Source of the DNA: Solibacillus sp. FSL R7-0682
GTDB taxonomy: Bacteria > Bacillota > Bacilli > Bacillales_A > Planococcaceae
Direction of reading: 5' to 3'
DNA: 44,786 nucleotides
NCBI RefSeq assembly: GCF_038005985.1
Contig: NZ_JBBOUI010000002.1
Span: forward strand, 1 to 44,786
The position numbers and the translations under genes were made by a program. Shown piece after piece: positions 1 to 44,786 of the stretch (the first letter of the stretch is position 1; every line of letters begins with the position of its first letter). A model generated the notes under the pieces. The model saw only the letters and a list, made by a program, of their open reading frames with translations, was not told where the DNA came from and did no database searches.

Positions 1-60
1 AAGTTTGGGGGCATAGTAAAAAGGCAGGAATGTTGTTAAATAAACGTTTCTGCCCTTTCT
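1..60. repeat. Right part of a cassette spacer (joins the window end)
   Basis: The first bases, AAGTTTGGGGGCAT, match the second half of the hairpin spacer repeat (compare GGTTTGGGTGCATT near 32533 and 34883). The first half, AACGTTCCCAAATGA, forms the last 15 bases of the window. An imperfect stem (about 20-30 with 48-58) followed by TTTCTT could be a terminator, as found after other copies. The rest up to 215 shows no gene. Confidence 0.55.
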
Positions 61-15125: not shown

Positions 15126-16019
15126 TTACAAATAATCATCTACATCATCCGATTTCAATTTAATATAATGCTCCATAATCGTTTGATGTGACTTATGGCC
15201 AGATTGTTTCGCAATTGTTGGAATATCAGCACCATTTTGATACATAGCAGTAATTTGCGTTTTTCGGAATGTGTAGGGTGCAAAGCCTAACCAACTTTGA
15301 ATCGCTTGGTTATAGCTGACCTCACTAATTTGACGGCTCGTATGATTACCCCATTTATCAGCTGCACCAACAAAATGATCATCTGGTATCAGTTCACACG
15401 AAACAATATACTTTCGAATTGCCTGCACGCACTCTAGCGTCAGGCGTTTTTCTTTCATTTCGCCTTGTTTGACCATCATCACCTGTACCGTTCGATTTTC
15501 TAAATCAAAATCGCTCACCTTCAGCCGCACCATTTCAGAAGGACGATTGGCTGTAATCAAATTAACCAAGCAAATCGCACGCTTGCGAATGTCACTCTTT
15601 TTATCCGTATCATAGCGATCAATGAGACGTAACACATCACTTTGCTTTTCGGCACGTTTCCCTCGCATCGGTTTTAGACGCATATATTCCTCATGATTAT
15701 ATAAACCTCGCAATAATTTGATGCTCGTCTCATGCTCTGAGGTGAATTGAAATCCATATTCATGCACTAGCCAGTACTTCACACCCGCTAAGCGTCGATT
15801 AAATGTGGATAGTCGGACTTGCTGCTGTGTAATTAAATGATGGAGATACAACTCTAACGATTCAAAATCTAACTTTAAAAAATGTTCATCACAAAACGCT
15901 TGGAATTGTTTAAAGTCAGATTGATATTGTGCCAGCTTCTGTTGTTGAATTTTCTGCAGTGTTTCGTCCTTTTGCTTCGTCATTTTATATTGCTGCAAAG
16001 AAAATAGAGTTTCTTCCAT
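15126..16019 (-). CDS. Tyrosine recombinase
   Basis: 297 residues from the ATG at 16019, with AGGAG about 11 bases upstream (the frame is open to 16040). The N-terminal SAM-like DNA-binding domain covers about 25-115. Catalytic residues: R159 (NRPSEM), R252 within YTFR (Tyr replaces the usual His of HxxR), H275 (SGHKS) and nucleophile Y285 (EHYIKL). Likely resolves plasmid multimers or mediates site-specific integration. A dyad over its promoter and palindrome P4 in its leader suggest tight control. Confidence 0.85.
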   Translation of the reverse strand: MEETLFSLQQYKMTKQKDETLQKIQQQKLAQYQSDFKQFQAFCDEHFLKLDFESLELYLHHLITQQQVRLSTFNRRLAGVKYWLVHEYGFQFTSEHETSIKLLRGLYNHEEYMRLKPMRGKRAEKQSDVLRLIDRYDTDKKSDIRKRAICLVNLITANRPSEMVRLKVSDFDLENRTVQVMMVKQGEMKEKRLTLECVQAIRKYIVSCELIPDDHFVGAADKWGNHTSRQISEVSYNQAIQSWLGFAPYTFRKTQITAMYQNGADIPTIAKQSGHKSHQTIMEHYIKLKSDDVDDYL

Positions 16020-16055
16020 TATATATGCACTCCTATCCAAATTTTGAGTGGATAT

Positions 16056-32381: not shown

Positions 32382-32472
32382 TTAAAATATTTGATTTTTC
32401 TGTAAATATAAAGGTGAAAAGGTATAATTTTAGTAAGAATGCCGTCAACATTTCGGAAATTTTGTACGCTAA

Positions 32473-32550
32473 GGCGTCCCGTCAGAAAAAAGCGGATTTA
32501 CAACGTTAAGGGGGATAATGTTCCCAAACGTCGGTTTGGGTGCATTTTTA
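32473..32550 (+). repeat. Tn3-family end plus spacer hairpin
   Basis: A nearly complete Tn3-type terminal repeat (32473-32510, ending GGATTTACAACGTTAAG; the leading GGGG is degenerate) is followed by GTTCCCAAAC-GTCG-GTTTGGGTGC, the same hairpin as in the cassette spacers. Marks the border of backbone and accessory region. Confidence 0.7.
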
Positions 32551-32641
32551 CTCTGTAAATAGATAGTTGATATGTATTTTAATTTAATGAATTCTATTAT
32601 TCTGATTTTTTGTAATTTTAGTCGTATATTAAGTTATAATA

Positions 32642-33420
32642 GGGGTCCCGTCAGAAAAATGCGGATTTACAACGTTAAGGAAAAATGGACATGAAACAAG
32701 AGCATGCACAACGCTAACTGTTGGGCTGCTCTTGTTTTAAATAGCGATAAATTGTAGCACGACTAATCCCTGTCATTTCAACAATTTCACTCACACTATA
32801 CTGTTCAGATTTATATAAATTGATGGCTTTTTTTAGCTCACGTTCATTCACTTTCGGACGCCCACCTTGACGCCCTCTGGCTCTAGCACTGATTAGCCCT
32901 TCCTTCGTTCGCTGGACAATTAAATCACGTTCAAACTGGCTGAATGCTTGGAAAACCGTCATCATTAATTTCCCTTGTGGTGTTGAAGTATCAAAGTTTT
33001 CTTTAATGCTTAGCAACTTGATCTCTCGTTCTTCAAAATACGCAACTAATTCAATTAAATCCTTCGTACTTCTACCTAACCGAGAAAAGCTTTCTACGAT
33101 TACCATGTCTCCTGGTCGCAATTTATCCTTCAGCCGGTTTAATTCTGGACGATCTGTTTTCGTTCCGGATAATTTCTCAGTTAAAATTTCTTGGCAATTG
33201 TACTGCTTCAATAAATCTAACTGTCGATTCAATTCCTGCTGTCGTGTACTCACTCTTGGGAGCATATTAATTTCTTAGGTGAATACCACTTTAGATCAGA
33301 AGGTAGCCACAATCCAAAGGAACTTCGCCCATTACGAATTCCTTAACGTTTTTAAAATAGGCGTTTCCGTCAGAAAAAATCCCTTAACGTTGTAAATCCG
33401 CATTTTTCTGACGGGACCCC
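32642..33420. mobile_element. Mini Tn3-family element (resolvase between two 38-bp ends)
   Basis: Perfect-looking 38-base inverted ends, GGGGTCCCGTCAGAAAAATG... at 32642-32679 and its inverse at 33383-33420, enclose only a serine resolvase gene. No transposase is present, so movement would need one in trans. The flanking five bases (TAATA, AAAAA) do not form a target duplication, suggesting it is a recombined remnant. Confidence 0.75.
32714..33265 (-). CDS. Serine resolvase/invertase
   Basis: 183 residues. Catalytic Ser6 in PRVSTRQQ, the VESFSRLGRSTKDL and GKLMMTVFQAFSQFERDLI motifs, and a C-terminal helix-turn-helix (YSVSEIVEMTGISRATIYRY). The usual N-terminal strand (about MKIGYA) is missing: TATGCT sits just before the active-site codons but out of frame, so a small indel probably truncated the N-terminus. 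Tn3-type resolvases separate transposition cointegrates. Activity is doubtful. Confidence 0.8.
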   Translation of the reverse strand: MLPRVSTRQQELNRQLDLLKQYNCQEILTEKLSGTKTDRPELNRLKDKLRPGDMVIVESFSRLGRSTKDLIELVAYFEEREIKLLSIKENFDTSTPQGKLMMTVFQAFSQFERDLIVQRTKEGLISARARGRQGGRPKVNERELKKAINLYKSEQYSVSEIVEMTGISRATIYRYLKQEQPNS

Positions 33421-33941: not shown

Positions 33942-34418
33942 TTAAACAAAGATACTAATAAGTGAAGTTACGCCATCTGCAATTGCATGAGATATTCCTT
34001 CATTTTTAGTAGTTTTCATTATTACTTTATAAATTCCGAGTTCAATCCAGTCTTCAGCAAGTTGATTATATGCAATAGCATCGTCTAAAACATATGAAAT
34101 CTCATATAAATTAGTTTTGAAAACTTTAGCTGTTGGTGCATCGAAATATTCAGTAATGGCATGTTTTACCCATTTATTATTTGCTCCAGCTTTAAGACCT
34201 TTCGAGATTCCTTTAACTGCTGCTACTGCAAAAAATCTTGGAAGTCCATATGTACCTACTTCTGTATCTTGTTCAATGCTAATAATTTCAATATCTTGTG
34301 TATTTACTTCTTTGATTGGAGTCGTTACTTCTGGTGTAGAAGCAAACGTACTTGTTGTAAGTCCTAACATCATTACTACAGATAATACTACAGCTATAAT
34401 TTGCTTTGAATAAGACAT
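33942..34418 (-). CDS. Secreted toxin-like protein A
   Basis: 158 residues, SD AAGGTGG. Sec signal peptide (1-26, cut after TFA), then a hydrophilic stretch (27-60) and a hydrophobic, Gly/Ala-rich C-terminal half (FFAVAAVKGISKGLKAG; later IADGVTSLISIF) with possible membrane-active helices. No domain recognised. It is one of three secreted proteins of similar plan in this region, each followed by a small gene. Bacteriocin-like function is a hypothesis. Confidence 0.5.
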   Translation of the reverse strand: MSYSKQIIAVVLSVVMMLGLTTSTFASTPEVTTPIKEVNTQDIEIISIEQDTEVGTYGLPRFFAVAAVKGISKGLKAGANNKWVKHAITEYFDAPTAKVFKTNLYEISYVLDDAIAYNQLAEDWIELGIYKVIMKTTKNEGISHAIADGVTSLISIFV

Positions 34419-34470
34419 TCTCTAATTCCACCTTTTCTAATATGTTTTTTAAAACAATAATAGAGTAACA

Positions 34471-34819
34471 TTAATTACAATAAAATACAATTATACCTAA
34501 TTTTAACTCATTCGAATCTAAAAAATCCTGCCAGCCGTTCACACCATTTAATTCATTCGGTGTTTGTTTAAATAGTGCCTGGTTCCGTCCTTCACCTTCG
34601 TCCATGCCCAATAATAAATCAAATTTACTTTTATTAAAAAAACAACCTGGAATATCTTCTCGGACACTTTCATTTTCAATCGTTCGGAACGTACCGTTTC
34701 TTTTTACCGTGATACTTTTGGTGTATTTGATATGCTTGTATTCCACTTCAAAATCTAAAGGGCAAATTTTAACTGCACCACGGAACCCGTTTGGCAGCTT
34801 TTTATGCAAACGTCTTATA
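34471..34819 (-). pseudogene. Phage-type primase C-terminal fragment
   Basis: A frame ending at 34471 is open upstream but enters a Tn3-type terminal repeat at 34820. The part inside, about 115 codons, has protein-like content (LPNGFRGAVKICPLDFEVEY, then DEGEGRNQALFKQ), the latter resembling the PriCT motif of phage primases. The 5' part of the gene is lost at the transposon end. Confidence 0.6.
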
Positions 34820-34900
34820 GGGGTCCCGTCAGATTTATGCGGATTTACAACGTTAAGCAAAATAAAGTTCCCAAACACTGGTTTGGGTGCATTTCGTTGG
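34820..34900 (+). repeat. Tn3-family end plus spacer hairpin (second copy)
   Basis: 38-base terminal repeat at 34820-34857 (GGGGTCCCGTCAGATTTATG..., ending ACGTTAAG) truncates the primase fragment. It is followed by GTTCCCAAAC-ACTG-GTTTGGGTGC, the same arrangement as at 32473-32550. Confidence 0.75.
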
Positions 34901-34961
34901 GAATATATGTTAAAGTTGATTTTATAAAGAGATGTGAAGGGATTGGTGTCATTGTGCATAA

Positions 34962-35126
34962 AAGAAGTATTTTATTATCTTCGTACCAGTGTTAATAATA
35001 GGCTTACTTTTAATATACTATCTTCCGGCAAATGAGCTTACTTATCTAATGTTAATTCCTCTGATTGCTTGGCTCATTTATTATGCTTGGATATATATCG
35101 AAAAAAGATTGAAAAACAAAACTTAA
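34962..35126 (+). pseudogene. Small membrane-protein remnant
   Basis: An open frame without a good start, KKYFIIFVPVLIIGLLLIYY ... IYIEKRLKNKT, with two hydrophobic segments, ends with TAA at 35126, 33 bases before a spacer repeat. The first in-frame ATG is at 35055 or so, too late. Probably a cassette gene that lost its start. Confidence 0.35.
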
Positions 35127-35158
35127 TTATTTTATTTAATTGATAAAGCATAAATAAT

Positions 35159-35233
35159 AACGTTCCCAAATGACTCTTAGGGAGCATTCATTTCAGCAGC
35201 TAAGGACTACAGTAAGTTCTTAGCTGCTTTTTA
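35159..35233 (+). repeat. Cassette spacer R1 with terminator
   Basis: AACGTTCCCAAAT (35159-35171), then a terminator: AGCAGCTAAG (35195-35204)/CTTAGCTGCT (35219-35228) and TTTTTA. Followed by TTTGGCTACCAAA. Confidence 0.75.
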
Positions 35234-35314
35234 TTTCATTTGGCTACCAAATCGTGATTAGGGTATGTTTTGTGATAATATAGTTTGTAGAAAATATTAC
35301 CAAAGGAGATTTTT

Positions 35315-36241
35315 ATGATCACTCAATTTCTAAAAGACATACCCTCTAACGAATTAGAGTTAAATATCCAAAAAATGAATGCACTTATTGAGTATTGTAA
35401 AGACGAGGAATCAGATGAACTAATACTCATTTCTAAAAATGGAATGTATCATGAAAATTTTACAAATACGAATAAACCTATTGCCATTAATTCATTGACA
35501 AAGGTTTTTGCTGGAACTGCAATCGGATTATTAATAGACGAAGGGTTAATTTCTTCTTTACATACGCCTATTTCTACCTATTTCTCAAATTTAAAAAACA
35601 CAGAAATGAGTGAAATTACACTTTGGCATATTTTAACGCATACTTCTGGAATTCATACAGACGGACACGATAATGAGCTTAGTGCTGCCCCGAATATTGC
35701 AAAATATGTTTTAGCTTTACCGATAACGGATAAACCAGGTACTGTTTCAAAATATAATAATGAAGCAGTTGGTCTACTTTCCGAAATTGTACGAACAATA
35801 ACAGGCAAAACAATAGACCAATATCTAAATGAAAAACTATTTATCCCATTAGGAATTAAAGATTGGGAGTGGTTAAAGGACCAATCAAATAACCCTTATG
35901 CATACGCTGGGCTTTCCTTAAAAGGAATTGACTTAGCAAAATTCGCCTATTTGCATTTAAATGATGGAGTATGGAATGGGCAACAAATTATTACTAAACA
36001 TTGGATTGATATGGCTACTCACCCTACTCAGTCCATTAATCGAAATTGGGGTTACTTATGGTTAACAGCTTATGTGGAAGATGTATATATTGGCTACGGA
36101 ATGAGTGGTTTTGGTGGTAAGTATTTATTAGTGAGCCCGAAAGAAAATTTTATTGCAATCCGCCTTGTACATAGAAGAGACCCTATTCCTGCTCCTAGTG
36201 CAGACCTATTTTTCAAACTTGCAATTGATATAATCAAATAA
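35315..36241 (+). CDS. Serine beta-lactamase-like hydrolase
   Basis: 308 residues, SD AAAGGAG. Class C/DD-peptidase fold: S60-L-T-K63 (SxxK) in INSLTKVFAG, Y147-N-N149 (YxN) in SKYNNEAVGLL, and WHILTHTSGI after helix 2. The third motif is replaced by GFGG near residue 270, as in esterase-like members. No signal peptide, so it is probably a cytoplasmic esterase/peptidase rather than an antibiotic-resistance enzyme. A single-gene cassette between spacers R1 and R2. Confidence 0.8.
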   Translation: MITQFLKDIPSNELELNIQKMNALIEYCKDEESDELILISKNGMYHENFTNTNKPIAINSLTKVFAGTAIGLLIDEGLISSLHTPISTYFSNLKNTEMSEITLWHILTHTSGIHTDGHDNELSAAPNIAKYVLALPITDKPGTVSKYNNEAVGLLSEIVRTITGKTIDQYLNEKLFIPLGIKDWEWLKDQSNNPYAYAGLSLKGIDLAKFAYLHLNDGVWNGQQIITKHWIDMATHPTQSINRNWGYLWLTAYVEDVYIGYGMSGFGGKYLLVSPKENFIAIRLVHRRDPIPAPSADLFFKLAIDIIK

Positions 36242-36291
36242 TCTAATACGAACTTTATATACGGCTCATTTTATACATTTAGATACAAAAT

Positions 36292-36499
36292 AACGTTCCC
36301 AAATGCAAGCTTGGTAACATTTCAAACAGCGACAAGTACTGTTAAATCAGTGTTTGTTGCTGTTTTATTAGAAAATAAAGCTCTGAGACGTTGTGAGGAA
36401 TTATTTTAAAAAAGATTGTTCGATTCACTTGTTCTGAATGGTTGTAACATATAAATAGACTCTCAATGAAATTTTACCAAAGGACGCTTTGGGAACGTT
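36292..36499. repeat. Full-length cassette spacer element R2 (208 bp)
   Basis: Starts AACGTTCCCAAAT, ends TTTGGGAACGTT; the ends are inverted repeats of about 25 bases (TTGGTAAC / TTACCAAAG inside). Contains a terminator hairpin AAACAGCGACAA (36324-36335)/TTGTTGCTGTTT (36354-36365). Homologous along its length to the elements at 40136-40343 and 43124-43320. Confidence 0.8.
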
Positions 36500-36586
36500 A
36501 AAAAATAGCTAATGCTTGTTATCAAACTGTATTCTCTTTAAATTTAAATAATATAGTGATTTTTATAAGCAAAGGTGGGATAAAGA

Positions 36587-36787
36587 TTGAATAATAATAA
36601 AAATTCTAAACTTGAGAAATGGCGAAAAGATTATGCTGCGTTAGCTGTTGCAATAGGTTGTTTATATAGTCTTATTGTAAGTTGGGGAGATAATTTGTTT
36701 ATGTCTGTATTGCTATCTTTAGGAGTAATAATCTGTGGGACAATTGGCTTTTTTGATTTAAAACGTATTTTAAAAAGGGCTCTTTAA
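36587..36787 (+). CDS. Small two-helix membrane protein
   Basis: 66 residues from a TTG at 36587, preceded by AAGGTGGGAT. Basic N-terminus (KNSKLEKWRKDYA) and two membrane helices (about 18-34 and 37-56) with a basic tail. No family recognised. The only gene between spacers R2 and R3, typical of the small cargo of this region. Confidence 0.55.
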   Translation: MNNNKNSKLEKWRKDYAALAVAIGCLYSLIVSWGDNLFMSVLLSLGVIICGTIGFFDLKRILKRAL

Positions 36788-36800
36788 ATCCATACAAAAT

Positions 36801-36813
36801 AACGTTCCCAAAT
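36801..36813 (+). repeat. Cassette spacer R3 (cut by IS)
   Basis: AACGTTCCCAAAT 14 bases after the preceding stop; the IS3-family end begins immediately after it. Confidence 0.7.
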
Positions 36814-37746
36814 GTGAAGTGACCCCTAAAAGTTAGACACGGTAATTTCAGGCAACCATTTGGGCATGAGTTCGATATTGTACCGGGCTCATACCTTTTA
36901 ATTTTGCCTTAATCCGTTTTTTATTGTAGTAGTTGATATATTTTTCTAGTTCTCTTTTGAATTGCTCGATATTTTCAAATTCCTTTAAATAGAGGAATTC
37001 AGATTTCATGATGCCAAAGAAATTCTCCATCACGGAGTTATCGTAACAGTTACCTTTACGGGACATACTTTGCACAATGCCTCTTGTTTCAAGACTGTGG
37101 CGATATTGTTTCATTTGATAATGCCAGCCTTGATCCGAATGTATTAATAGCTGGTGGTCTTCTGGTAAGCATTCTAACGCCTTTTCTAACATGTCTGAAA
37201 CTAGGGAAAAGGTTGGCCTTGATCCAATTTTATACGTAATAATTTCACCATTAAATAAATCTAAAACAGGCGATAAATAAAGCTTTTCTCCAAATAATTT
37301 AAATTCAGTAATATCAGTTACCCATTTCTGATTTGGTGCTTCTGCTAGAAAGTTACGATCTAAAATATTTGGCGCAATTTTACCGACTTTACCTTTATAT
37401 GATTTATATTTTTTCATACGTACTAAGCACTTTAAGCCTAGCTCTTTCATGATGCGTTGAACCTTCTTATGATTCACTTTTCGCCCACGATTCGCTAACT
37501 CGTCACGAATACGACGATAACCATAACGACCTTCATGTTCATCGTAAATCGCTTGGATTTCGACCTTTAAATCAGCGTTTGGATCTAGTCGATTCATCTT
37601 CTTCACTATATCGTAATACGTACTGCGTTTAATTTCTGCGAATGCCACAAGTGCTTTCACCGAATATTTATGCCTTAATTCACAAATAACTTTTACTTTG
37701 TCTTTCGTGGTGATTTTTCTTTGGCTCATATAAAGGAGGACTTACT
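36814..37746 (-). mobile_element. IS3-family (IS150-group) element, orfA deleted
   Basis: The end GTGACCCCTAAAAGTTAGAC near 36820 is typical of IS150-group terminal repeats. Only orfB follows; orfA and the other end are missing, and a HTH gene starts directly beyond it. Confidence 0.75.
36848..37729 (-). CDS. IS3-family transposase OrfB
   Basis: 293 residues. HTH_21-type start (KAYDEHEGRYGYRRI-like, here IYDEHEGRYGYRRIRDEL), then the rve integrase core with the DDE residues in WVTDITEF, HSDQGWHY and NSVMENFFG. Normally made as an OrfAB fusion by frameshifting; without orfA it is probably inactive. The ATG at 37729 follows AAGTCCTCCTTT, not a good ribosome site. Confidence 0.88.
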   Translation of the reverse strand: MSQRKITTKDKVKVICELRHKYSVKALVAFAEIKRSTYYDIVKKMNRLDPNADLKVEIQAIYDEHEGRYGYRRIRDELANRGRKVNHKKVQRIMKELGLKCLVRMKKYKSYKGKVGKIAPNILDRNFLAEAPNQKWVTDITEFKLFGEKLYLSPVLDLFNGEIITYKIGSRPTFSLVSDMLEKALECLPEDHQLLIHSDQGWHYQMKQYRHSLETRGIVQSMSRKGNCYDNSVMENFFGIMKSEFLYLKEFENIEQFKRELEKYINYYNKKRIKAKLKGMSPVQYRTHAQMVA

Positions 37747-37950
37747 ATCAAAAATAATATTAAGGTTCTACGAGCTCAACATAGTATGACGCAGGACCAG
37801 TTGGCGGAAAAACTTTCTGTTTCTAGACAAACAATCATTTCACTTGAAAAAGAAAAATATAACCCATCCATTATTTTAACTTTTAAATTGGCAGAAATTT
37901 TCAACTGCAAGATTGAAGATATATTTATTTATGAGGGGGAGTTTGAATGA
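37747..37950 (+). CDS. HTH regulator with ATC at the start position
   Basis: 67 codons, KNNIKVLRAQHSMTQDQLAE and SVSRQTIISLEKEKYNPS, a YozG/YgzD-type XRE domain. AAAGGAGG lies seven bases before ATC (37747), where homologues have ATG. Either the start was mutated when the adjacent IS end was deleted, or translation begins inefficiently at ATC. Its stop overlaps the next start (ATGA). Such regulators commonly precede a membrane protein gene, as here. Confidence 0.6.
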   Translation: MKNNIKVLRAQHSMTQDQLAEKLSVSRQTIISLEKEKYNPSIILTFKLAEIFNCKIEDIFIYEGEFE

Positions 37951-38330
37951 AAAAAGCACGTGAAAATCAATTAACATACCTATTTTTAGGTATTATAATG
38001 ATTCCACTAAGTATTTACATTAATTACCCATATATTGCAAATGGTGACTTCCCAGAAGGGATTATGACTTTTTTCTTGGGAACAAGTGCATTAATGATGT
38101 CCTATTTGTCACCTCATTTATTTCCGAGAGATGAACGTACAAAAGAAATTATAGGCAAGAGTATGACAGTAAATTATTTTACATTATTCGGGGCATTCCT
38201 AATCCTGTTTCTATTAACTGGTTCACTAGGACCTATTACTTTAAGCGCTACGCAAGTTTTATTAGTTTTATTTTGCATTATGATTACGTCAATTCCATTA
38301 ACGATGGTTATTTATTCGAAACTAATTTAA
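37947..38330 (+). CDS. Four-helix membrane protein paired with HTH regulator
   Basis: 127 residues, GAGGGGGAG upstream. Membrane segments at about 10-27, 38-56, 77-96 and 102-123. Family not named by any motif; small membrane proteins co-transcribed with YozG-type regulators are frequent in Bacillales and of unknown function. Followed after 28 bases by spacer R4. Confidence 0.6.
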   Translation: MKKARENQLTYLFLGIIMIPLSIYINYPYIANGDFPEGIMTFFLGTSALMMSYLSPHLFPRDERTKEIIGKSMTVNYFTLFGAFLILFLLTGSLGPITLSATQVLLVLFCIMITSIPLTMVIYSKLI

Positions 38331-38358
38331 TGATTAATCTATACAGAAATAAAAAAAT

Positions 38359-38414
38359 AACGTTCCCAAATGGAAGTTAGGGAATCACCCCCATTTAATA
38401 TAATGGGGGTTTTT
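38359..38414 (+). repeat. Cassette spacer R4 with terminator
   Basis: AACGTTCCCAAAT (38359-38371), then terminator ACCCCCATT (38387-38395)/AATGGGGGT (38102-type copy at 38402-38410) and TTTTT. Confidence 0.75.
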
Positions 38415-38447
38415 GGCTACTAAAGATCAGTATGTGCCGCAATAACG

Positions 38448-38694
38448 ACTGCCCTCCTACAAGAACGCCATGAGCTTGCATTAGAACGTGCAATCGTAAA
38501 AGCTGAGCGTGAATACCAAGAGAAACTGCAGGCCCAGCTAGATACATACAATGCCCGTATTACAGAACTTCAGGTTGAAAATGATCGTATTCGTGGGATG
38601 TACGAAAATCGTTTAGAAGAGCATTTAAAGAATAACGAGAAAAAGAAGTAAAGTTTAGGAGGACACGTACATGAAGTCAACTGGAACAGGTTAG
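38448..38694 (+). pseudogene. Coiled-coil protein and AbrB-type gene remnants
   Basis: A frame without a start (TALLQERHELALERAI ... KNNEKKK, stop 38649-38651) is a long charged coiled coil. It is followed by AGGAGG and an ATG at 38671 that begins MKST-G like AbrB regulators but stops after seven codons (38692-38694). Both look like truncated pieces of a lost operon. Confidence 0.45.
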
Positions 38695-38782
38695 TATTCA
38701 ACTATTCTATTTCATGATTTCCCTATAAATGATATCAATTCGTTGAGTAATAAAGATTAATTTCAATTTGCAGTACCAATTG

Positions 38783-38980
38783 TTAATTCTTTTTCCAAGA
38801 ATAAGGCTTTTTTGCCCAATTATATATACTTACAAATAAATATATAAGTACACAGGAGATTGCTAAAATAATTAAGTTTTCACTCCATTTAATATCACTG
38901 TTAGAGAAAAATTGTTTAATAGTTAAAACAATAAAGAAAATCACGGGAAAAGCAAAATAAGATAATTGATTTTTTTTCAT
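38783..38980 (-). CDS. Small membrane protein, immunity-like (pair B)
   Basis: 65 residues from the ATG at 38980 (AAGGGG upstream); the frame is open further but without a start signal. Two membrane helices (about 7-22 and 34-53) and a basic tail (WAKKPYSWKKN). It lies downstream of a secreted protein on the same strand, with a stem (AAGAATTTCC/GGAAATTCTT, 39080-39105) between. The immunity role is inferred from pairing. Confidence 0.5.
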   Translation of the reverse strand: MKKNQLSYFAFPVIFFIVLTIKQFFSNSDIKWSENLIILAISCVLIYLFVSIYNWAKKPYSWKKN

Positions 38981-39120
38981 ATTACCAACCCCTTCACTAT
39001 AATAACAGAAGCAATACATCATACAGTATTGCTTCCCAGTAAACACTCCTACCCTACACTTGATAAGTTTAAAGCCAAGAAGAATTTCCGAGTAGGAAAT
39101 TCTTTTCTGTATTCTGTATA

Positions 39121-39648
39121 TTATATCCAGCCCTCTTCTGTGTATAAGCAATAGAAGAAGTATGCCGATAGATTAACCGCTATACCAGGAACGGAGCCCT
39201 TAAAGCCTATTTTCACCAAGTAACCTGCTGCTTTCGTAAATTCACCAGCTTTTAGATAATCATAAATTATAGTTAATGCACTTGTTCCAAGCATCCAACC
39301 ATAATTTTCCATAATAAGGGTGTTAATGCAAGCATCTACTTTTGCAGTAAATGGAGTAATCATCTCGTCTTTAAGAACATTCTGTTTTGCATTCAATTTA
39401 TTTATATCTTTTAATAATGCAGTATCAACTGAATCACCAAACTTTTCAGCAATTTTATCTGTATCCAATCCAATTACATTACCAGCTAAATCGTATAATG
39501 CTGCTTCTTCAAAAGCAAATTGTAAAGCTTCTGCTAATTCATTAACTAATTCTTCGTCATTTCCTTCTGCATTTGCATTAGGTGCTGCGAAAGCAAAACT
39601 TGAAATAATCAATACTAGCGAGAAAATTGAAAATAATATTTTTTTCAT
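39121..39648 (-). CDS. Secreted toxin-like protein B
   Basis: 175 residues. Signal peptide 1-27 (AAPNANA), an acidic helical part (30-65), then a region with two Cys (in VDACINTL and YFFYCLYT) around hydrophobic, Gly-rich helices (YGWMLGTSALTIIYDYL; GFKGSVPGIAVNLSAYFF). The plan recalls secreted membrane-active peptides such as SdpC, but no homology can be claimed. GGGG 10 bases upstream is a weak ribosome site. Confidence 0.5.
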   Translation of the reverse strand: MKKILFSIFSLVLIISSFAFAAPNANAEGNDEELVNELAEALQFAFEEAALYDLAGNVIGLDTDKIAEKFGDSVDTALLKDINKLNAKQNVLKDEMITPFTAKVDACINTLIMENYGWMLGTSALTIIYDYLKAGEFTKAAGYLVKIGFKGSVPGIAVNLSAYFFYCLYTEEGWI

Positions 39649-40135
39649 AATAATTACCCCATTCCATTTTTATTTTACTACTTCTCATTTAACTGAATCT
39701 TCTACATAGGAAATTACAATTGAATTGTAGAAGTTTTTAAACACAAATACTTCGCCACCTGTCAACCATAAAATTAACATTGCCACTCAATATCAACCAT
39801 TTTTTCCTCCTCTCATTTTAACTATAAATGGTAAAATTTAGATAAATTCAAAATATTCATTTTTGAATATTAAAAATTCAGAAGTGATATATTATGTTTG
39901 GAATAATAGCGAGAATTTCAAAGGGGATATAACCATTTTGAAATTGCTAGATTCGCAAAAATTACTCAAGGTACATATAGTAAATTTTGAAAAAGAGGAA
40001 AGAGAAGTAAGGGCTTTATGAAAAAACACTTTCCTTAAATCAAGGAAAGCAAAGCATTTGAAGCTAAATAACCATTTTTTTATAGATAAAATCGAATCTT
40101 CTTTAATTCTTAGCATATACAAACTCATTCAAATA
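39649..40135. other. Gene-free stretch
   Basis: Very AT-rich, with only short shadow frames on either strand. The part at 40020-40130 (KSRKAKHLKLNNHFFIDKIE-like frame) may be a decayed gene. It probably includes the promoter of the secreted protein B gene. Confidence 0.3.
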
Positions 40136-40343
40136 AACGTTCCCAAATAAAAGCTTGGTAACATTCCAAACAGCGACAAGTACTGTTAAATCAGTGTTTG
40201 TCGCTGTTTTTAATAGAAAATAACGCTCTGAGACGCTGCGAGATATCATTTTAAAGAGGGCTGCTCAATTCACTCTATCTGAATGAAGGTAAAATATAAA
40301 TAGAATCTCAATGAATGTTACCAAAGGACGCTTTGGGAAGGTT
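40136..40343. repeat. Full-length cassette spacer element R5 (208 bp)
   Basis: AACGTTCCCAAAT at the left, TTTGGGAAGGTT at the right (one change in the end). The same internal terminator stem AACAGCGACAA/TTGTCGCTGTT and the same trailing sequence as R2 and R7. Confidence 0.8.
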
Positions 40344-40384
40344 ATCAACTTTCGTAACTTCTACCAATTAATTTCGTTACTCTT

Positions 40385-40639
40385 ATGAGTACAAAATTAT
40401 CAATATTTGAGTTGATTGTAATTGAACTTATGAATGGGGGATTTATGATTTTAATTTTATTTGGTTTTTTGATTGCTTTCATTACCGTTATATTATTTTT
40501 GCTTTTATGTACTAGGATAATAATTTCTTTTATTAAAAAGAAACCTTTTCCTAAAAAATTATTGGTTGCATCGTTGTCTGGGGTTGTTCTGGTATCTTCA
40601 ATCTATATATATGAAGTGTACTTTTTTACATTTAGTTAA
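40385..40639 (+). CDS. Small hydrophobic membrane protein
   Basis: 84 residues if it starts at 40385, where there is no ribosome site; GGGGG before the ATG at 40445 suggests a 64-residue form starting MILILFGFLIAF. Two to three membrane helices. No family recognised. Single gene of its cassette. Confidence 0.4.
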   Translation: MSTKLSIFELIVIELMNGGFMILILFGFLIAFITVILFLLLCTRIIISFIKKKPFPKKLLVASLSGVVLVSSIYIYEVYFFTFS

Positions 40640-40749
40640 ATTTATAGGGAATATATCCAAAATGGACCTGGACCTGTAATATCACCGACTGAAGAATACA
40701 CAGCTAATTTATTGGAAAAGAAAGAAGAGCTTGTGAAGTAAATGGTGGT

Positions 40750-41154
40750 ATGTCTGAGGGAAAAAGAGAATATCTCGTATTGCGTTCGATTCCAGGCGTT
40801 GGCGATACAACTGCTTGTCGATTAATTGGTGAACTAGGTGATATTCGACGCTTTAAAAACACCAAACAAATCAACGCATACGTAGGGATTGATATAATGC
40901 GCTATCAACCTGGGAATACCCAGTACCGTGACCGTATCAATAAACGAGGAAACAAGAAGCTACGAAAGATTTTATTTTTTATGATCTGTGCAATGATTAT
41001 GGCAAAAGGAAAACCGAACCATTTTGTTGATTACTATTATAAATTAAAAACGCAACCTCAGAGGAAGCCTCATAAGGTCGCAATTGTGGCGTGTATCAAT
41101 AAATTTCTGAAAGTGACATTTCAGTTAATGACACACGGTATACTGTACGATTAA
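40750..41154 (+). pseudogene. IS110-family transposase, C-terminal remnant
   Basis: 134 codons corresponding to the Transposase_20 domain of IS110 elements (LRSIPGVGDTTACRLIGELG, then INAYVGID and RGNKKLRKIL). The N-terminal DEDD catalytic half is missing. The 100 bases before it hold another unrelated fragment (VISPTEEYTANLLEKKEEL), so it is a junction of remnants. Confidence 0.75.
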
Positions 41155-41222
41155 GAGTCCGCACTACCAGCTCAGAAATCGAAAATATAAAAGAATTTAC
41201 CGGGATACACTTGACTAATCGT

Positions 41223-41274
41223 AAAAAAACTGCGCCTCCAATTGTTAGACGTGTCTAACAATTGGGGTGCAGTT
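41223..41274 (-). terminator. Terminator of toxin-like pair C
   Basis: Long stem (41228-41250 with 41253-41274; inner AATTGTTAGAC/GTCTAACAATT perfect), followed on the minus strand by AGTTTTTTT. Confidence 0.75.
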
Positions 41275-41334
41275 CATAAAAGTAAATAACTTATAGGATA
41301 TATTTTATTAATATAAGTCCTAGAGGTTGCGTGG

Positions 41335-41514
41335 TTACTTATATTTTTTTGCTAAAACTTTATAGGCGTAATACAAAATTAGTACGAAAAAGATTCCGTA
41401 AGTAACCTTGTACAATAACGTAAAGGTTTTATGGTCAGCAGTTATAATATTAAGGAAATAACTGCTTAAAAGATAAAGAAAAATAATTGAAATGAGTTTA
41501 AATTTATCGTTCAT
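41335..41514 (-). CDS. Small membrane protein, immunity-like (pair C)
   Basis: 59 residues, MNDKFKLISIIFLYLL ... YKVLAKKYK, starting six bases after the stop of the secreted protein gene. Two membrane helices (about 6-23 and 35-53) and a strongly basic tail. No ribosome site of its own, so it is probably translated by coupling. Immunity function inferred from pairing and size. Confidence 0.6.
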   Translation of the reverse strand: MNDKFKLISIIFLYLLSSYFLNIITADHKTFTLLYKVTYGIFFVLILYYAYKVLAKKYK

Positions 41515-41520
41515 TTCAGA

Positions 41521-42144
41521 TTACCAAATAACATCGAAGTATCCGTTTTTAGGTTTTGCATCTTTTGAATCAATGTAGTTTGTGATTTTTTCTGCTGGAT
41601 CTAATACACTAACTACGAAATCAGCAAGTACAGGAAGGCTGATACCTAATGCGATTGCAGCTTTACCTAAGATTTTAGTTTTAATTGAGCTTGTGAACAT
41701 TCTTGCTAATTCTTTAGCGCCGTATTTCTTTAAGGCAACAGCGATTGTACCTACTCCAAGAGAAAGTAAGATTGCATCTAAAATTACATCAATTGAAGCT
41801 TTTACATACTTGTTTTGAAGATGAATATCTGGAAGGTTTGGCGTCCAAATATCGCCAAGGTCGAAAAGTGGCATAATTACGTTTTCGTCTGAAAGATCAG
41901 GCATTTCGATTGTTGCAAGGTTTCCTCTAAGCGCAAGTTCCATATCTTTACGCTCTTCTTCATCGGCAATTGTAGCTAATTTCATTTGTAAAGCTTGCTC
42001 AATTGCTCTATCAAGCTCTTCATCTGTTACTGTAATTTTTTCGAAAGTTTGCTCACCCTCACCCTTAGCGAAAGCATTAGAGCTTAAACTAAATAATAAT
42101 ACTAAGGCAATTAAAGAACTAGCGATTTTTTTGAATACTTTCAT
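41521..42144 (-). CDS. Secreted toxin-like protein C
   Basis: 207 residues, SD GGAGGAGG. Signal peptide 1-26 (SSNAFA), an acidic propeptide-like region (27-105), then a hydrophobic, Gly/Ala-rich region (VILDAILLSLGVGTIAVAL; IKTKILGKAAIALGISLP) and a short polar tail. The domain plan suggests processing to release a membrane-active C-terminal part. No database family claimed. Confidence 0.55.
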   Translation of the reverse strand: MKVFKKIASSLIALVLLFSLSSNAFAKGEGEQTFEKITVTDEELDRAIEQALQMKLATIADEEERKDMELALRGNLATIEMPDLSDENVIMPLFDLGDIWTPNLPDIHLQNKYVKASIDVILDAILLSLGVGTIAVALKKYGAKELARMFTSSIKTKILGKAAIALGISLPVLADFVVSVLDPAEKITNYIDSKDAKPKNGYFDVIW

Positions 42145-42451
42145 AAAATAAATCCTCCTCCGAGAAGCTGTGATTAACTTCTCTCAATTTTTTTGGATTA
42201 TCTAAGAATTGTATTCTCAGATAATTTAGTGCATAAAACGCTTTGAAAACCTTTGTATTCAGTAAGGACCAAGCAACCTATACCTCCATTTACTTTCGTA
42301 ACAAATTATACCATAAAACTAATTATTATGTATAGTTGTAAAATATAGGGAATGAGGGTGGTGATTTCAATGGTATATAATAACGGCTCAGTTTTTAGAT
42401 ACATAAGATTAAATAAACAATTATCTTTAATATACAAACTAAATCTAAAAA
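42145..42451. other. Leader region of gene C and gene-free stretch
   Basis: GAGAAG-TGTGATTAA-CTTCTC near 42160 is a small stem in the leader of the secreted protein gene. The rest is AT-rich without a supported gene. Confidence 0.35.
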
Positions 42452-42550
42452 AACGTTCCCAAATAAGCCATTGGGAACATTCGAGCCAGCAGCCAGGACA
42501 TTTCGTATTCTTAGCTGTTTTTGATTACCAAACATCGCTTTGGGGGCATT
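42452..42550 (+). repeat. Cassette spacer R6
   Basis: AACGTTCCCAAAT (42452-42464) with its own inverted partner ATTGGGAAC (42470-42478), a GCAGCCAGGA...CTTAGCTG stem with TTTTT, and TTACCAAACATCGCTTTGGG at 42525-42544. Confidence 0.7.
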
Positions 42551-42609
42551 TAAAGGAATTCATTCGCATCTTCTAGAAACCTTAATATATCAACTTAGGA
42601 GGTTTTTAA

Positions 42610-43095
42610 ATGTCTTCTCATATTAGAGTTCGAGCTGGTGCAATAATCATAGAAAATAATGAAATATTATTAACGGTGTATAACGACCCAATAAGAGGTA
42701 TCGTTTACGATTTACCTGCTGGTGGAGCGGAACCCAATGAATCAATTACAGATACAGTTAAAAGAGAAGCTAAAGAAGAAGCGTGTATAGATGTAGAAGT
42801 AGGTCCTCTAGCTTTTGTTTATGAATACACACCTCATCTTAATTTTGAAAAGTTTGGGAACATACATACATTAGTTATGATGTTTGAATGCAAAATAAAA
42901 AGCCCTAGTACACCAAAATTTCCAGAAAACCCAGATTCAAATCAAATAGATGTTAAATGGCTACCTATTTTAGAGTTACAAAATATTGAAATGTACGCAA
43001 ACATCGGACATTATTTACAGGAATATACGCAAAATCCTAGAAACATTGATTTAATAGAAGAGCATAAACTAAATGAGGTGTATCGAGTTCGTTAG
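42610..43095 (+). CDS. NUDIX hydrolase
   Basis: 161 residues, SD AGGAGG. The Nudix box is present: GGAEPNESITDTVKREAKEE followed by ACIDV, matching GX5EX7REUXEEXGU except that Cys replaces the last Gly. Hydrolyses a nucleoside-diphosphate-linked substrate; specificity not evident. C-terminal NPRNIDLIEEH is an ordinary extension of this subgroup. Single-gene cassette. Confidence 0.88.
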   Translation: MSSHIRVRAGAIIIENNEILLTVYNDPIRGIVYDLPAGGAEPNESITDTVKREAKEEACIDVEVGPLAFVYEYTPHLNFEKFGNIHTLVMMFECKIKSPSTPKFPENPDSNQIDVKWLPILELQNIEMYANIGHYLQEYTQNPRNIDLIEEHKLNEVYRVR

Positions 43096-43123
43096 AATTA
43101 TTTTATACAACCCCATACAAAAA

Positions 43124-43320
43124 AACGTTCCCAAATCCAAGCTTGGTAACATTTGAAACAGCGACAAACACTGATTTAACAATGTTTGTCGCTGTTTTTT
43201 ATAGAAAATAACACTCTGGGACGCTGCGAAAAATAATTTTAAAGAAGACTGTTCGATCCACTTGTTCTGAATGGCGATAACGTATAAATAGAATCTTACC
43301 AAAGGACGCTTTGGTAACGT
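43124..43320. repeat. Full-length cassette spacer element R7 (197 bp)
   Basis: AACGTTCCCAAAT left end 28 bases after the NUDIX stop, right end TTTGGTAACGT. Internal terminator AACAGCGACAAA/TTTGTCGCTGTT with TTTTTT. About 230 AT-rich bases with no gene follow before the AraC gene. Confidence 0.8.
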
Positions 43321-43551
43321 GTTTTTATTAAAACAAACAAAATTACCTTTCGACACAATAAGAGCATTCCTTTTCTATTTTAGTTTGCAAAGAACAGAAA
43401 AGTTTTGTGAAGATATAGCTCTCCGCCCTTAGATAATGGTTGCTTCACCACATTTTAATCTCTCTTTTTAAACCTTATACTTACAATAGTGCAATAATTA
43501 TCAAAAATATTCCTTATTCCCCCTATATACTTAATCTTGAGGTGAGCAGTT

Positions 43552-44430
43552 ATGTATAGTGAAATCGTTCAGAAAATCGTGGATACATTAGAGGAGAACT
43601 TATTAACAACATGGCAGTTGGATCATTACGCAACAAAAATTGGCTATTCGAAATTTTATTTGACGCGTCAGTTTAAAAAAGAAACTGGTTTAACGATTGG
43701 CGAGTATATTCGAAAAAGACGTCTGGCCGTATCTGCTTTTTTATTGCTTCATACTGATTACACAATCCTTGATATTTCGTTCGAATGTCAATTTCAATCG
43801 CAAGAAGCTTTTACACGTGCATTTAAAGAGCTATACAGCATGCCACCCGGTAAATACCGCCATATGATGCGTTCTTTATACACAAAGGAGGAACAGGAAA
43901 TGACAACAACAAACGAGGTAAAAGGTTGGTTATTAACGGGGACAAACCCATCTGCTTATACAATGAAAGCCGACCACGAAGTATTCCATACAGGCTCAAA
44001 ATCTGGTTATCTTGGCTCTACACGTCCTGCTGAGGAAGGGCAATTTGGTACGATGATGCAAGTATTTTCCGCTAAAAATTGGATTGGTAAGCGAATGAAA
44101 ATGTCCTGCTTCATCAAAACAAAAGATGCAATGAAATGCGGGGCTTGGTGCCGAATTGATACAAAAAATGGTGATTTGTTGCAGTTTGATAATATGGACA
44201 ATCGTTCCATCCATGGTACAACTGACTGGAATTATTACTTCATTGTGTTAGATATACCAGAAGAGAGCGCCGCTATTCATTTTGGAGTTTTACTTGCTGG
44301 TTCAGGTGAAGCATGGATTGATGGAATCGCCTTTGAGGAAGTGGACGATTCAGTACCATCCACTAATATAGCAGGCTCTGCTGGTGAATTACCGTTAGAG
44401 CCAGTGAATTTAGGGTTTGATGATTTATGA
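43552..44430 (+). CDS. AraC-family transcriptional regulator
   Basis: 292 residues, SD GAGGTGA. The AraC double helix-turn-helix is at the N-terminus (about 5-105: DHYATKIGYSKFYLTRQFKK, then FECQFQSQEAFTRAFKELYS). Residues 120-290 form a beta-rich C-terminal domain (GSKSGYLGSTRP, WNYYFIVLDIPEESAAIHFG) like a jelly-roll/carbohydrate-binding sensor. A ligand-responsive regulator; signal unknown. Coupled to the following gene by an ATGA overlap. Confidence 0.85.
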   Translation: MYSEIVQKIVDTLEENLLTTWQLDHYATKIGYSKFYLTRQFKKETGLTIGEYIRKRRLAVSAFLLLHTDYTILDISFECQFQSQEAFTRAFKELYSMPPGKYRHMMRSLYTKEEQEMTTTNEVKGWLLTGTNPSAYTMKADHEVFHTGSKSGYLGSTRPAEEGQFGTMMQVFSAKNWIGKRMKMSCFIKTKDAMKCGAWCRIDTKNGDLLQFDNMDNRSIHGTTDWNYYFIVLDIPEESAAIHFGVLLAGSGEAWIDGIAFEEVDDSVPSTNIAGSAGELPLEPVNLGFDDL

Positions 44431-44693
44431 TGCTACTCGATATACTATTTGATATCTTCATCAACATCTATACGTCGTTAGGCTATGGAACAAAGGAACA
44501 TAAAATTGAGTCAAAGATGGAAAAAATCAAATCCGACCATCCACAAGCCTATGTAATCTACATGCAAAACCAAGCCCTATTCGAAACAGATGCAGAGCTA
44601 AGTAAAAAGGTTTTGGACTTAGATGTAAAAAACAAAATGGTGGTCAACAATACAGTCAATGAGATTTACGCACATTTTGCGGTTGCAGCTTAA
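44427..44693 (+). CDS. Small protein coupled to AraC-type regulator
   Basis: 88 residues. One hydrophobic segment at the N-terminus (LLDILFDIFINIYTSL), the remainder soluble and charged (KIESKMEKIKSDHPQAYVIY). Overlaps the end of the AraC gene. No domain recognised; last cargo gene before the closing spacer. Confidence 0.6.
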   Translation: MMLLDILFDIFINIYTSLGYGTKEHKIESKMEKIKSDHPQAYVIYMQNQALFETDAELSKKVLDLDVKNKMVVNNTVNEIYAHFAVAA

Positions 44694-44786
44694 CAGCGAC
44701 TCGCCAAATTTATAACGTTAAGAAAAAGTGCCACCAAAGTGGGCGGTTTTATATACATTCAAATTCAAAATAACGTTCCCAAATGA
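44694..44786 (+). repeat. Degenerate Tn3 end and spacer R8
   Basis: AAATTTATAACGTTAAG (44708-44722) resembles the inner end of the Tn3-type repeats. AACGTTCCCAAAT at 44772-44784 is the last spacer copy; it continues into position 1 of the window. Confidence 0.6.

Follow-up and report, generated by a model that had tools for sequence, protein, structure and literature searches.

What sets apart the small genes that line the right-hand end of this Bacillota contig, and what moves them? The window, by which we mean the whole 44,786-nucleotide stretch analysed (contig NZ_JBBOUI010000002.1 of Solibacillus sp. FSL R7-0682), carries a row of intervals of one or two genes, separated by copies of AACGTTCCCAAAT that all point the same way. 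The initial annotation suggested that this might be an undescribed gene-capture system, a suggestion that is supported here by the finding of exact-edged intervals in other genomes. We consider it probable that mobile gene cassettes make up an array here and are exchanged by an Xer-like integrase acting in trans at core sites of two 12-base-pair (bp) arms around a 6-bp spacer (12-6-12). The best reading of the system is as a variant of tyrosine-recombinase gene cassettes, Xer-based, in Gram-positive bacteria.

The eight copies of AACGTTCCCAAAT are all exact, lie on the + strand where the initial annotation had placed them, and in five cases (36292, 36801, 38359, 43124 and 44772) follow the stop codon of a + strand open reading frame (ORF) by about 14–80 bases. 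With up to two mismatches allowed, 16 matches occur on both strands against 1.83 expected, and none of 100 shuffles reaches 16. Each copy is the left arm of a 30-bp site composed of a 12-bp arm, a 6-bp spacer and a second 12-bp arm, with AACGTTCCCAAA as the consensus of the conserved arm; the cores at 36292 (AACGTTCCCAAA-TGCAAG-CTTGGTAACATT) and 36470 (AATTTTACCAAA-GGACGC-TTTGGGAACGTT) are examples. For a 12-6-12 site model, 93 sources served both for training and for scanning (the window, one plasmid, 64 loci with hits or arrays, 20 loci of the integrase and seven loci of the window's own genome). Over their 1,120,528 bases it scored 365 sites at more than 13 bits, against one in a mononucleotide shuffle; these scores are partly circular, since training and scanned sequences are the same.

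In the window, the model returns 13 complete sites, at 32517, 34864, 35159, 35240, 36292, 36470, 38359, 40136, 40314, 42452, 42521, 43124 and 43292, and there is an extra arm at 36801, interrupted by an IS3-family insertion sequence (IS). One more core site is formed when the window end (44772–44786) is joined to its start (1–15). Because the last 15 and first 15 bases together form a core, a circular plasmid is the most likely form of the contig, with an array that spans its ends. The chromosome of the source genome (G000; largest contig 3,996,048 bases) holds further arrays besides this one. The full core, as an exact pattern, had no match in viral contigs, megablast of the array against phages gave none, and an Rfam search of window 34000–44786 found nothing at gathering thresholds.

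Recurrence in other genomes carries the argument for mobility. The survey comprised 261 genomes in 19 genera of the family (an order-level search gave the identical 261 genomes), and G and L numbers below denote genomes and loci. G152 and G153 are Solibacillus faecavium and Solibacillus merdavium, their integrase-upstream regions matching named records; by the same reasoning genus g8 is Lysinibacillus (G038 with L. macroides), and genus g14 is probably Psychrobacillus. Four window cassettes recur elsewhere at 94.8–96.9% identity with edges at cores, as the initial annotation had proposed to check. Cassette 6 (40321–42464) is found as a whole unit at 96.9% in a Lysinibacillus genome (G043, L130) in a different setting, and cassette 7 (42528–43134) at 94.8% in Solibacillus G158 (L142); cassette 8 is matched over 43296–44786 at 96.1% in G039 (L131) and over 43296–44783 at 95.2% in G036 (L132), both of the genus Lysinibacillus. 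One cassette of 555–558 bp is directly seen across genera: in G162, G009 and G152, which represent two genera, its sequence is near-constant while the neighbours on both sides are all different, and its left edges (L243, L245, L241) abut the right end of the preceding cassette directly, with no joint between them.

Exact edges are also observed in bulk. Comparison of 68 array loci from 20 genomes (matches of at least 250 bp and at least 80% identity) gave 169 between-genome matches. These have 327 usable ends, of which 26.3% are no more than 15 bp from a core, as against 2.3% of random points (maximum 4.6% in 200 draws). Both ends lie at cores in 23 of the 169 matches; 13 of these are copies of an IS3-type element of about 1.45–1.49 kb, and among the ten without an IS some represent one cassette in several genomes. 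When IS-bearing matches are set aside, 129 matches with 248 ends are left, and 46 of these ends (18.5%) lie at cores, against 2.1% of random points (maximum 4.8%). Because intervals recur elsewhere with edges at sites, and with new neighbours in two genera, it is close to certain, as far as sequence comparison can tell, that they are exchangeable mobile gene cassettes.

The position of exchange was examined by grouping half-sites by their adjoining 120 bases and scoring spacer identity for pairs that share a flank and have different neighbours; these pairs are not independent, and one hairpin family contributes many of them. Read from the far to the near end of the spacer, identities are 0.79, 0.46, 0.56, 0.88, 0.96 and 0.81 for weak-arm ends (817 pairs, 33 families) and 0.66, 0.85, 0.60, 0.67, 0.49 and 0.90 for strong-arm ends (67 pairs, 23 families), with 0.51, 0.81, 0.67, 0.61, 0.72 and 0.64 for mixed pairs (67). 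Because the arm-adjacent bases tend to move with their arm and the middle bases are less tied, we infer that strand exchange would take place within the 6-bp spacer, as for a tyrosine recombinase.

Between many cassettes lies a joint with two cores and a hairpin. Such joints have two main lengths, with 15–60 or 140–180 bases between cores in 31 of 35 elements. The three copies of about 200 bp that the initial annotation had described, with inverted ends and a common stem, are present as elements of about 200–208 bp at 36292–36499, 40136–40343 and 43124–43321, each with inverted ends and an internal hairpin. A search of other genomes for the element, also proposed there, was productive: the joint 36292–36499 has relatives with equal limits in G031 (L230, 88–92%) and on plasmid pSSIL1 (L251, 89%). 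Exchange involves the two cores of a joint and not just one of them. The hairpins are located past the point of exchange, where sequence downstream of the sampled right ends (60 of 153) has a mean z of −3.26.

These joints bear on a rival account, in which the intervals would be ordinary DNA shuffled by homologous recombination or by transposition of the 208-bp and 110-bp elements in the manner of miniature inverted-repeat transposable elements (MITEs). The 208-bp element is indeed a multicopy repeat, and IS3- and Tn3-family elements are common at the sites. Abutting cassettes without a joint nevertheless share the core alone, a short stretch for homologous recombination of the usual kind; exchange is placed in the 6-bp spacer, and joint ends have many neighbours (46 families among 69 half-sites at the left end of hairpin joints, 16 among 18 at the right end of long joints). 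Insertion at random, including inside genes, which the initial annotation had named as the mark of ordinary MITEs, was not seen in the loci examined, where edges are enriched at sites and target duplications were not counted. We regard this account as quite unlikely.

Two observations concern the spread of the long joint. Plasmid pSSIL1 (NC_018069.1; Solibacillus silvestris, 14.9 kb) has four long-joint matches (7189–7398 and three more) and two annotated site-specific integrases. In the Listeria innocua plasmids NZ_CP095722.1 and NZ_CP095729.1, sequence near 62 kb matches the long joint over its first 71 bases (77.5%), and the core site may thus reach beyond the family.

Gene orientation mostly follows the sites. 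We scored one ORF, the longest, per interval in the window and in related loci from one plasmid and 20 genomes: 75 of 194 intervals gave no score, and in 108 of the other 119 the ORF points to the strong (conserved) arm. By protein family, 88 of 98 are mostly co-oriented, nine opposed and one tied. The cassettes are mostly single-gene, with the site at the 3′ end of the gene, and the median longest ORF is 149.5 amino acids (aa; 194 intervals). The 153 unique right ends have the arm in common, preceded at a distance of about 24 bp by a TATACA-like motif of weak conservation. The cargo is diverse: a scan of 115 of the 194 interval proteins matched 95 families in total, many met once, and among the matches listed GNAT acetyltransferases were most frequent (8 of 115), with three CAAX proteases and two each of isochorismatases, methyltransferases and VanZ-like proteins. 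Window cargo includes a PF00144 hydrolase, a NUDIX hydrolase and an AraC-type regulator.

Which enzyme would act at these sites? The initial annotation had recorded neither an integrase nor standard attC sites; the latter point stands, as set out below, but a candidate integrase does exist, on the chromosome and outside the window. It is a 317-aa tyrosine recombinase of G000 with a perfect palindromic 12-6-12 site upstream, and it scores best with the XerC model (224.1 bits; cut-off 335). Of 50 aligned rows, 98% carry each of the catalytic residues R, K, H, R, H and Y. In a scan of 47 integrase loci (5–21 kb fetched each, some from one species), a 12-6-12 site is present in all 47. Its distance from the start codon is at most 120 bp in 40 loci, 156 bp in one and, owing to an insert, 810 bp in both L. 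macroides records; by eye, the site is next to or overlaps a promoter-like TATAAT. The linked site is a perfect palindrome in 29 of the 47 loci, with one mismatch in 14 and two in four; none of 340 sites in the other loci analysed is perfect. Linkage of enzyme and palindrome is thus a direct observation.

The gene occurs in 95 of 261 genomes and 11 of 19 genera. Counted as exact 13-mers, sites average 4.79 per genome with the integrase (at least three copies in 50 of 95) and 0.33 without it (at least three in 2 of 166). Even when two copies are subtracted from each integrase-positive genome, the worst case for the palindrome, 32 of 95 retain at least three; the genomes in these counts are related, and the p-values come from non-independent tests. 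It is very likely that some tyrosine recombinase moves the cassettes, and the linked Xer-like integrase is the best candidate, by an assignment that is correlative. A scan of named records gave one further relative, at 45%, in a Clostridia metagenome bin; it lies outside the set of 47 loci. An imperfect hairpin, CTCTGAGACGAATCGAGATGG ... TTCACTTCGTCTGAATG, also lies upstream of the integrase (for example in L049–L068), with a related stretch, by eye, within the 208-bp joints.

Regulation and position add to this picture. GAACN4GTTC, which we take to be the Bacillus-type LexA box, occurs upstream of the integrase exactly in 18 of 41 loci and with one mismatch in 28 of 41, where 0.0022 and 0.065 per locus would be expected by chance; these loci are related, and several genomes are counted twice. 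The gene lies at 46–55% of the chromosome from dnaA (11 genomes, worked out by hand). Site clusters are strongly concentrated near the terminus, 77 of 100 falling in the terminus-proximal 40%, as is common for acquired genes, and their replication-strand bias (61 of 100 co-oriented, p 0.035) is too weak to build on; these counts use the 31 of 42 G158 sites that were listed, take G161 as 4.4 Mb, and exclude secondary contigs and integrase palindromes. In L. macroides (G038), an insert of about 760 bp sits at the integrase palindrome (L124 9567–10370; L168 9155–9960), with the full palindrome at one end and half at the other. This single case would fit the palindrome as an insertion target.

An alternative enzyme is the housekeeping pair XerC/XerD, which could move cassettes of dif-module type while the linked integrase does other work. 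The 6-bp spacer and inverse half-sites equal those of Acinetobacter dif modules, and further Xer-like relatives are present in all 261 genomes. The arms (GTTCCCAAA) are, however, unlike dif, and the integrase-negative genomes keep their Xer-like relatives yet have the few sites noted above. A dif pattern is also separately present: it is exact in five of five Lysinibacillus genomes tested, 65–86 kb from the integrase, and at up to two mismatches it is found in 13 of 23 genomes overall and 2 of 9 Solibacillus, so that dif is separate from the core site at least in Lysinibacillus and is not settled for Solibacillus. We consider action by XerC/XerD unlikely. That the integrase serves mainly in chromosome-dimer resolution is likewise less likely, given the separate dif of Lysinibacillus, with the same proviso for Solibacillus. 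Several dif-like sites with differing spacers, four in G086 and three in G036, could be true dif modules.

Several observations weigh against assigning cassette exchange to the linked integrase, or against parts of that proposal. The linked site is 1–3.6 kb from the gene in four loci, from three Metasolibacillus-like genomes. No other site above 18 bits lies in 46 of the 47 integrase loci, the exception being L126, with sites 12–14 kb off. Genera g14 and g15 possess integrase and palindrome with 13-mer means of just 0.58 and 0, and in 19 of 19 g14 genomes AAGGTTCCCAAAT occurs only as the two arms of the palindrome. Conversely, at least one 13-mer is present in 40 of 166 integrase-negative genomes, and genus g18 (G233–G257) has about one exact copy each (29 in 25 genomes), with no close integrase relative found. 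Co-evolution was tested for and not found, base 3 of the palindrome failing to follow the cassette arm; this base mostly varies so as to keep the hairpin, which would fit an operator or terminator as well as an attachment (att) site. GAACN4GTTC boxes are confined to genera g1, g6, g8 and g9, and loci of other genera have none. In the window alone, two of five scorable intervals are co-oriented, and one of the three opposed ORFs is an IS transposase. A clean empty target site was not found by synteny or with an end-module profile, in a search biased by the fact that all fetched regions bear the 13-mer. Cassette exchange itself is read from sequence comparison.

With these points in the balance, we still favour the trans-acting Xer-like integrase and propose the following scheme. 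A cassette would consist of one or two small genes, ending in the arm AACGTTCCCAAA and starting with a related inverse arm; adjacent cassettes, or a cassette and a hairpin joint of about 110 or 208 bp, would meet in a 30-bp core, and a tyrosine recombinase would swap cassettes inside the 6-bp spacer, possibly by way of circles. The enzyme is most likely the Xer-like integrase, chromosomal in G000 and acting in trans. In Solibacillus, Lysinibacillus and close genera, DNA damage probably increases its expression by way of the LexA-like box, a form of SOS induction that the box suggests.

How does such a system relate to known ones? Integrons are alike in their mostly one-gene cassettes with the site 3′ of the gene, their diverse cargo, a recombinase linked to a copy of the site and, in many integrons, LexA-type control (PMC3108266), to which the LexA-like box corresponds. 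The system could accordingly be imagined as a very diverged true integron, with an IntI-type integrase and folded single-strand attC sites. The attC site is laid out as R''-L''-stem-L'-R', and two cores around a hairpin resemble it. The integrase, however, scores only 86.4 bits with the integron-integrase model TIGR02249 against a cut-off of 265, and the window's own tyrosine recombinase (15126–16040) scores 26.9 bits. No folding is seen at the 3′ ends of cassettes (mean z −0.35 for the top and −0.20 for the bottom strand; 60 of 153 sampled). Inner-arm complementarity is no greater within than between two-core elements (8.17 vs 8.02 of 12, p 0.24, 35 elements), which leaves attC-like folding of the joints unsupported. 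No cassette array adjoins the integrase in the 47 loci, and both joint cores exchange. With all three defining tests negative, a true integron is very improbable.

The dif modules of Acinetobacter (pdif or Xer modules) are closer in layout. They are described as using Xer-type sites with 11-bp XerC and XerD arms and 6-bp spacers (PMC13141974), and here, too, inversely oriented sites with a 6-bp spacer bound the modules, modules are shuffled on plasmids, and IS elements target the sites. Insertion sequences that target dif-module sites are reported (PMC13141974, PMC10132070), and those found in cores here resemble the site-hunting IS1202-family elements at pdif sites. By contrast, our sites are of 12-6-12 form with GTTCCCAAA arms, and a comparison of AACGTTCCCAAA with dif gives no dif-like site with XerC/XerD arms; genes are mostly co-oriented, the recombinase is probably a dedicated Xer-like enzyme with a palindromic site linked to it, and the phylum is Bacillota. 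Such modules were termed characteristic of Acinetobacter in 2019 (PMC6449649).

In its linkage to a site of its own and its place near the terminus, the integrase finds its nearest parallel in XerS/difSL (PMC2731167). It shares with XerS/difSL and XerH/difH a single Xer-like recombinase, a site beside the gene and a terminus location; it differs in the presence of further Xer-like proteins, in the canonical dif present at least in Lysinibacillus, and in that many cassettes share its site. IME8 of Lysinibacillus sphaericus (PMC13239906) is a tyrosine-recombinase-based mobile element from the same family, but is about 30 kb long, with two integrases of its own and an unrelated attachment sequence, AATATAAAATTTATATTAAAT. 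Among the matches listed from the open-access literature, none is a prior description of the system, and those listed for the arm sequences are unrelated by title.

The array itself can now be read from left to right, with features on the + strand unless stated. It begins at the core AAAGTTCCCAAA-CACTGG-TTTGGGTGCATT (34864–34893), the left edge of cassette 1, beside a Tn3-like terminal repeat. Cassette 1 (34877–35171) holds a small membrane-protein gene; the same unit is present on the Solibacillus G160 chromosome (L212; 95.5% over 34868–35174), and compared with that copy the gene in the window appears frameshifted. A short joint follows at 35159–35269 (cores 35159–35188 and 35240–35269, with a terminator-like hairpin between them), and then cassette 2 (35253–36304), with a beta-lactamase-family (PF00144) serine hydrolase at 35315–36241. 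The first long joint, of 208 bp, has cores at 36292–36321 and 36470–36499. Cassette 3 (36483–36813) encodes a 66-aa membrane-type protein (36587–36787) and ends in the arm 36801–36813, the rest of its core being replaced by an IS3-family element on the − strand (36815–37729; transposase 36848–37729, apparently truncated), similar to IS elements in cores of other genomes.

Beyond this element lies a remnant of cassette 4 (37730–38371), for which the ORF list gives a 127-aa membrane-type protein (37947–38330), with its core at 38359–38388, a site with a weak right arm. Cassette 5 (38373–40148) encodes a secreted-type 175-aa protein on the − strand (39121–39648), whose EntV-family match of 30 bits is far under the cut-off of 130. 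After the second long joint (cores 40136–40165 and 40314–40343), cassette 6 comprises an 84-aa protein, an IS110-family fragment (40750–41154) and a secreted-type 207-aa protein on the − strand (41521–42144). A short joint (42452–42550; cores 42452–42481 and 42521–42550) leads to cassette 7 (42528–43136), with its NUDIX hydrolase at 42610–43095, and the third long joint (cores 43124–43153 and 43292–43321) to cassette 8 (43296–44784), with the AraC-type regulator (43552–44430) and an 88-aa protein (44427–44693). The left part of a core at 44772–44786 is completed by window 1–15 on the putative circle, where an array-end module follows (1–240; outer limit approximate, by eye), made up of a right arm, a hairpin with a TGTTAAAT loop and TATGCA-rich sequence. 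Modules of this type, with their own hairpin, are found to the right of many arrays.

Other elements gather at the same places. The initial annotation had placed the array next to Tn3 ends, and Tn3-like terminal repeats do abut the sites at 32517 and 34864. Such repeats adjoin or interrupt cores or array-end modules repeatedly (window 32472–32684 and 34817–34893; L044 5957; L232 7614; L085; L227 8280; L131), as if Tn3-type elements favoured them. IS elements with TGAAGTGACCCC or TGAACTGCACCCC ends likewise lie inside cores: the IS3-family element at window 36801–36815, and others at L046 2688, L190 5950, L191 5910, L220 5509, L221 5410, L043 2282 and L192 6005. A reverse-transcriptase gene (PF00078) stands beside the chromosomal array in L041 (3437–5254), and sequence resembling the end of a group II intron, by eye, beside the hairpin of the array-end module in L189 (5723) and L205 (10560). 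The arrangement is reminiscent of class C introns, which lie near integron attC sites.

Taken together, we lean towards a third cassette system, independent of integrons and dif modules, in which a stand-alone and probably damage-induced Xer paralogue would act in trans on 12-6-12 sites dispersed over the chromosomes and plasmids of Solibacillus, Lysinibacillus and relatives, and single genes would move across Gram-positive genera. Integrons are the textbook means by which bacteria gather genes cassette by cassette, and reports have treated dif modules as particular to Acinetobacter; an independent system in Bacillota, if true, would imply more than one recruitment of Xer recombinases for gene capture. 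Confirmation of the integrase would place the system, as one of its own, alongside integrons and dif modules. Such a system would also give a tractable Gram-positive model for cassette formation and for the recombination of modules with unlike spacers. The cargo of acetyltransferases, NUDIX proteins, hydrolases, methyltransferases and families met once provides a list of accessory genes for study.

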